Assembly: GCF_000963885.1 (NCBI RefSeq)
Contig: NZ_BALE01000010.1
Location: forward strand, 62,001 to 126,000
Length of the DNA stretch: 64,000 nucleotides
DNA from: Tanticharoenia sakaeratensis NBRC 103193
GTDB taxonomy: Bacteria > Pseudomonadota > Alphaproteobacteria > Acetobacterales > Acetobacteraceae
Reading direction: 5' to 3'
Positions 55,122 to 56,728 of this stretch are shown piece by piece. Each line of letters opens with the position of its first letter. The first letter of the stretch is position 1. Below the pieces are notes generated by a model that was not told the DNA's origin, did not search any database, and was given only the letters and a program-made list of their open reading frames with translations. The position numbers and the translations under genes were made by a program.

Positions 55122-56297
55122 ATGAGCGATGATCTGCCCGTATCGGGCGCCAACCTGCCGCCGTCTCCCTTGGACGTGGGCACGGTCCGGAACGGACGTG
55201 TGACCTTTCCGAACTGGCGAGGGGATGCGGATCCGCCCGAGCCAGAGCCTCCGGCCCCGTTGCCGCCGGACGAGCGGGTCGGCTTTGCGATCATGGGTCT
55301 CGGGCGACTGGCGCTCGGACAGATCCTGCCTGCCTTTGCACAATGTCGCCTTGCGCGCCCGGTCGCCCTCATTTCCGGAGATGTGGAGAAGGCGCGTGTG
55401 GTCGCCGCACAGTACGGCATCCCGCCTGATGCCGTGTATGGCTACGACGAATGCGACCGGCTTTCGCGCAATGATGCCGTTCGTGCGGTCTATGTCGTGA
55501 CGCCGAACGGCCTGCATCGCGAGCACGTCCGTGCGGTCGCGGCGACGGGACGGCATGTCCTGTGCGAAAAGCCGATGGCCAATACCAGCGACGAAGCCCG
55601 GGCGATGGTGGCTGACTGTGCGGCGGCAGGCGTGAAGTTGATGATCGCCTATCGCTGTCAGTACGAGCCTTACAATCGTGAACTGGCCGAGCACGTGCAA
55701 TCGGGCCGGTTCGGCCGTCCCCGTCTAGTTGTCGCGACCAACACGCAGGTTCAGGGTGCTGCCGATCAATGGCGACACAAGCCGGCACTTGCCGGAGGCG
55801 GGGCGCTGCCGGATATCGGGCTCTAATGCCTCAACGGCGTGCGCACACTGCTCGGCGAGGAACCGCTGGAGGTCTCCGCACAGATGGTCCGCGGGGACGA
55901 GCGGATTGGCGAGCTCGACGAGACGATCGCCTTCACGCTGCGATTTCCCTCAGGCGCCATCGCCCAGTGCAGCGCCAGCTACGCCGCCTACGAAACCAAG
56001 GATCTCCGCCTCTACAGCGAGGACGGCGCACTCGAACTGGAAAATGCGTTTGCCTATACCGGGCAGCGTCTGTTCACCCGTCATCGTCTTGGCGATGCGC
56101 GTGGCGTGGAAGAGACGCGCCTGGCGCACGCAAGCGCGTTCGCTCAGGAAATCGATCATTTTGCCGATGCGATCCTGCATGATCGCGCACCGCAGACGCC
56201 GGGCGAGGAGGGCGTTCGGGATCATCTGCTGATGGAAGCGATCTACCGCGCAGCAGGGCTCGGGCATCCGGTGGATGTATCGGACATCAGCATATGA
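55122..56297 (+). pseudogene. Gfo/Idh/MocA oxidoreductase (glucose-fructose oxidoreductase-like) interrupted by an in-frame stop
   Basis: The reading frame runs through a single TAA (55824-55826) and continues in the same frame to 56297, giving 391 residues if the stop is ignored. The N-terminal half has the NAD(P) fold (VGFAIMGLGRLALGQILPAF), YVVTPNGLHREHV, the catalytic-Lys motif LCEKPMANTSDEA and LMIAYRCQYEPYN. After AGGGALPDIGL comes the stop, then CLNGVRTLLGEEPLEV. Relatives such as Zymomonas glucose-fructose oxidoreductase have Tyr at this exact place, four residues after the Asp, and that Tyr is catalytic. TAC or TAT to TAA needs one base change. No Tat signal is present. It overlaps the YdcZ-type gene by four bases. 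Confidence 0.85.
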
Positions 56298-56728
56298 AGA
56301 TGCTGATGCTGGCACTTGCCGTGCTGGCTGGAATAAGCAACCCGATCCAGTCGGCGGCCAACGCGGCGCTGAGCAAGACGGTCGGCCCGATCCTGACGGT
56401 GGCGGCGGTCTATGCCGTGGCGATCGTGACGCTGGTCCTGGTGGCGCCGGTTCTCGGTGTCGGGAAGCCCGCGAAATTCGCCGAGGTGCCGTGGTGGGCA
56501 TGGACCGCCGGCCTCTGCAACATCATCTTCGTGCTGGTCGGGACGACGGTCACGCGCAAGATCGGGTCCGCGACCTTTGTCGTGACGACGCTGACGGCCG
56601 CGGTCATCGTCTCGATCCTGCTGGATCAGTTCGCAGTCATGGGCCTGCCACAGCGGTCCATCACGCTGTGGCGTGTCCTGGGCGGTGGCCTTGCAGTCGC
56701 GGGCGTCGTCATGGTGGCCCGAGGATAG
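56294..56728 (+). CDS. YdcZ/DUF606-type DMT-superfamily small membrane transporter
   Basis: This 144-residue protein has five hydrophobic segments (LALAVLAGISNPIQSAANAAL, TVAAVYAVAIVTLVLVAPVL, WWAWTAGLCNIIFVLVGTTV, FVVTTLTAAVIVSILLDQF and VLGGGLAVAGVVMVARG). This matches the YdcZ/DUF606 half-size DMT proteins, which usually act as dimers. The substrate is unknown. The ATG overlaps the stop of the oxidoreductase frame (ATGA), so premature termination of the upstream gene may reduce its translation. Confidence 0.8.
   Translation: MKMLMLALAVLAGISNPIQSAANAALSKTVGPILTVAAVYAVAIVTLVLVAPVLGVGKPAKFAEVPWWAWTAGLCNIIFVLVGTTVTRKIGSATFVVTTLTAAVIVSILLDQFAVMGLPQRSITLWRVLGGGLAVAGVVMVARG

Follow-up and report, generated by a model that had tools for sequence, protein, structure and literature searches.

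A glucose-fructose oxidoreductase (GFOR)-like accessory gene of Tanticharoenia sakaeratensis NBRC 103193 has most probably been inactivated in this strain by a recent nonsense mutation, and the resulting stop falls exactly on the codon of the catalytic tyrosine. The gene occupies positions 55122–56297 on the forward strand of the window, the 64,000-nucleotide stretch of DNA that was analyzed. As judged from the reading frame, the read-through translation, Pfam matches, and alignment, it consists of 391 codons and a terminal TGA with one interruption, an in-frame TAA at codon 235 (55824–55826, forward strand), whose position was assigned from the frame, the alignment, and the corresponding column of the homologues. 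Annotation should label the locus a broken gene of GFOR-like type and should not predict GFOR-type activity on its basis. The mutation, if real, provides a small example of an accessory sugar oxidoreductase lost in one strain, with little significance beyond annotation.

The TAA shares its frame with the ATG at 55122 and the terminal TGA at 56295–56297, and reading through it yields one protein of 391 residues, as expected from the sequence-only reading, in which the frame had been described as intact on both sides of the stop. A Pfam search of the read-through protein gave matches to PF01408 (8.3e-24), PF22725 (2.3e-24), and PF02894 (3e-17), all above the cut-off, showing the Rossmann domain (PF01408) together with a Gfo/Idh/MocA C-terminal domain. 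The PF01408 match lies before the TAA, that of PF22725 spans it, and PF02894 matches on both sides. Because either side of the TAA matches its own part of the Pfam domains, the locus represents one interrupted gene and not two adjacent genes. The closest solved relative of the read-through protein was the GFOR of Zymomonas mobilis (PDB 1h6a; E 2.5e-82, residues 35–386), in agreement with the assignment, already made from the letters of the DNA, to the glucose-fructose oxidoreductase type of the Gfo/Idh/MocA family. Judged by these matches, the gene descends from that family and, as read, would encode an incomplete member of it.

The catalytic set was examined along the 1h6a alignment, in which residue equivalences to the precursor of the Zymomonas enzyme were counted by hand. 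Lys150, the lysine of the EKP motif, and Asp231 of the GFOR-like gene align with Lys181 and Asp265 of the precursor, respectively; the conserved Lys and Asp of the family have been described (PMC5969746). Residue 235, the site of the stop, aligns with Tyr269 (1h6a precursor numbering), four residues after Asp265, just as residue 235 follows Asp231 by four, so that the spacing claimed in the sequence-only reading was reproduced, and a TAA stands where the tyrosine codon is expected. We take Tyr269 to be the catalytic residue of Zymomonas GFOR; a literature search on Tyr269 of GFOR found no paper. All three catalytic positions, with the stop in the place of Tyr, thus align with Zymomonas GFOR (PDB 1h6a, 1ofg, and 1ryd), from which the window gene differs in carrying TAA for the Tyr codon and in a modelled start without an obvious export signal, as judged by eye. 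The next closest characterized enzyme was the aldose-aldose oxidoreductase of Caulobacter crescentus (PDB 5a02–5a06; E 2.4e-77 for 5a02), whose gene, unlike the window gene, is intact; this enzyme oxidizes and reduces aldoses and holds NADP tightly bound (PMC9795676).

Column 235 of the alignment was Tyr in all 99 distinct homologues (at least 40% identical, with duplicates and partial matches removed), encoded by TAC or TAT, which verified that the in-frame TAA occupies the catalytic Tyr codon. The coincidence of the stop with the catalytic residue looks fortuitous: it needs no special cause, because Tyr codons belong to the few that a single substitution can convert into TAA, and attention was drawn to it because the catalytic Tyr is a well-known residue. 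In the same alignment, residue 165 of the GFOR-like gene (55614–55616) is Asp, whereas it is Ala in 98 of the 99 homologues.

Both parts of the gene were well preserved, as had been supposed, in frame, in codon bias, and in the conserved residues kept downstream of the stop. The upstream and downstream halves each scored best in the true frame when assessed by the genome's own codon usage, and their GC3 values (0.71 and 0.72) were slightly under the mean of 0.76. At columns conserved in at least 95% of the homologues, the GFOR-like gene deviated at 2 of 39 upstream and at 0 of 24 downstream, and with column thresholds of 90% and 80% it stayed within the range of the other homologues. The terminal branch in the tree was longer for the downstream half than for the upstream half (0.63 vs. 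0.24), and lineage-specific changes in relative-rate counts were more numerous downstream (e.g., 25:12) than upstream (15:14), suggesting that the stop could be not very recent; similar branch ratios were observed in at least two other taxa (L007 and L125). The downstream/upstream identity ratio was 0.82, inside the control range (0.85 ± 0.08). Accelerated decay of the downstream half, toward which the branch lengths and relative rates lean, is thus suggestive only, as the conserved-column and identity-ratio controls do not point the same way. These data are read as indicating a gene that would be little decayed, whose constraint may have relaxed slightly either before the stop or after it. 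The combination of an in-frame stop missing from the homologues with an otherwise conserved frame is that of a nonsense pseudogene. Bacterial pseudogenes with a single nonsense mutation likewise have one in-frame stop, a conserved remainder, and an accessory distribution in their family, and the sole difference in the window gene is that the stop sits on a catalytic residue.

According to the mechanism proposed here, a single substitution would have turned the Tyr codon (TAC or TAT) of the accessory gene into TAA, and translation would end after residue 234. By the normal code, the frame at 55122–55826 (forward strand) gives a product of 234 residues with an N-terminal extension, the whole Rossmann domain (54–177), and the beginning of the C-terminal domain (about 50 residues). 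The suggestion that a truncated product would keep the NADP domain only therefore stood as far as the complete Rossmann domain is concerned, but had left out the extension and the roughly 50 residues of the C-terminal domain. The fragment would retain the NADP-binding domain but lack the catalytic Tyr as well as the greater part of the C-terminal domain, and would not be expected to be active as an enzyme. The early stop may also lower translation of the next gene on the forward strand, a ydcZ-like DMT transporter gene (56294–56728) for a YdcZ-type exporter, because the start codon of ydcZ and the terminal TGA of the broken gene share bases in the sequence ATGA and ydcZ thus starts inside the last codons of the GFOR-like gene; on the grounds of this overlap, a drop in ydcZ translation would be a plausible by-product of the stop. 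In four other loci (L010, L039, L060, and L117, of which L039 and L117 look like one genome), the GFOR-like gene is likewise followed directly by a ydcZ relative, but none of the four has the ATGA overlap.

The main rival to a real mutation, which we regard as unlikely, is a base-call or assembly error that has put the TAA into the consensus alone, the organism itself carrying an intact gene. The assembly is a draft of 94 contigs, no second genome of the genus was found among those searched, and the gene carries one substitution and no further lesion, with normal conservation. Two observations speak against an error: the TAA does not lie in a homopolymer, and the region is present as a single copy in the assembly. 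Moreover, in short-read isolate assemblies wrong substitutions in the consensus are less common than genuine nonsense pseudogenes, and it is for this reason that we place a real mutation well ahead of an error. It is far less probable that a new role is filled by the 234-residue product or by two pieces that are translated independently. The residual downstream frame is open and conserved, and its first possible start, a GTG at 55839 a few codons past the TAA, would give 152 residues comprising most of the C-terminal domain (55839–56297, forward strand). Neither this piece nor the 234-residue piece contains the catalytic Tyr, no relative was found with the gene split at the same place, and recency of the mutation explains the conservation on both sides equally well.

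The reading of the TAA as Tyr or another residue, by means of a suppressor tRNA or programmed readthrough, fits the locus formally, with the frame intact on both sides and the stop at a Tyr position, and is nevertheless scarcely credible. TAA is an ordinary terminator in this genome, ending 18 (approximately 14%) of 130 confident gene ends in 400 kb, as compared with 102 for TGA and 10 for TAG. A search with the Rfam model found 42 tRNA genes, to all of which ARAGORN assigned sense anticodons, including a single tRNA-Tyr (GTA), and no ochre-reading tRNA was detected among them; genome-wide reassignment of TAA was rejected on the stop usage together with this tRNA set. The 100 bases after the TAA folded no better than shuffled sequences (z −0.38), and an Rfam search downstream of the stop gave nothing above the threshold, the only match being a sub-threshold one to sR22 well downstream; a cis-acting readthrough element was rejected on these results. 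No homologue had a stop at residue 235. Normal use of TAA, no ochre-reading tRNA among those found, no unusual RNA structure, and no shared stop together make both reassignment and programmed readthrough very improbable. Recoding had been ranked below a recent mutation or a sequencing error from the start; it is now much less likely than could be said at that stage. That an unrecognized lineage-specific mechanism reads through the TAA, restoring the catalytic Tyr and regulating enzyme activity, is an equally remote prospect, and recoding, if true, would be a major surprise. A survey of 400 kb for other intragenic stops returned nine candidates, which look like adjacent genes in one frame; the survey missed the TAA at 55824–55826 itself, because the 40 codons before it score slightly better antisense, and its finding of no other clear cases in the 400 kb is therefore not evidence of absence.

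The distribution of the gene is in line with the loss of an accessory function by nonsense mutation. Close homologues (E ≤ 1e-90) were present in 52 of the 398 genomes of the family Acetobacteraceae, corresponding to 17 of 102 genera, an occurrence that marks it as a gene which members of the family can do without. The nearest homologues were scattered among Roseomonas and its relatives, Pantoea, Paraburkholderia, and Methylobacterium, which fits an accessory gene that may move between lineages. A stop at residue 235 was shared by no relative among the family genomes or the named genomes checked; a search of viral contigs gave none, and a plasmid search gave relatives only up to 62% identical. 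One homologue, in another genome of the family (L011, G026:C105; 47% identical), is independently broken in a different way: the Trp codon of its QW motif is replaced by TAG, and the match to its C-terminal part sits in a separate stretch. A paralogue in the same genome (L003, G000:C78:184670-185701; 35% identical) has Tyr at the catalytic position. Upstream of this paralogue, an extended alignment revealed an NGxxxFP/NW peptide with a stop inside.
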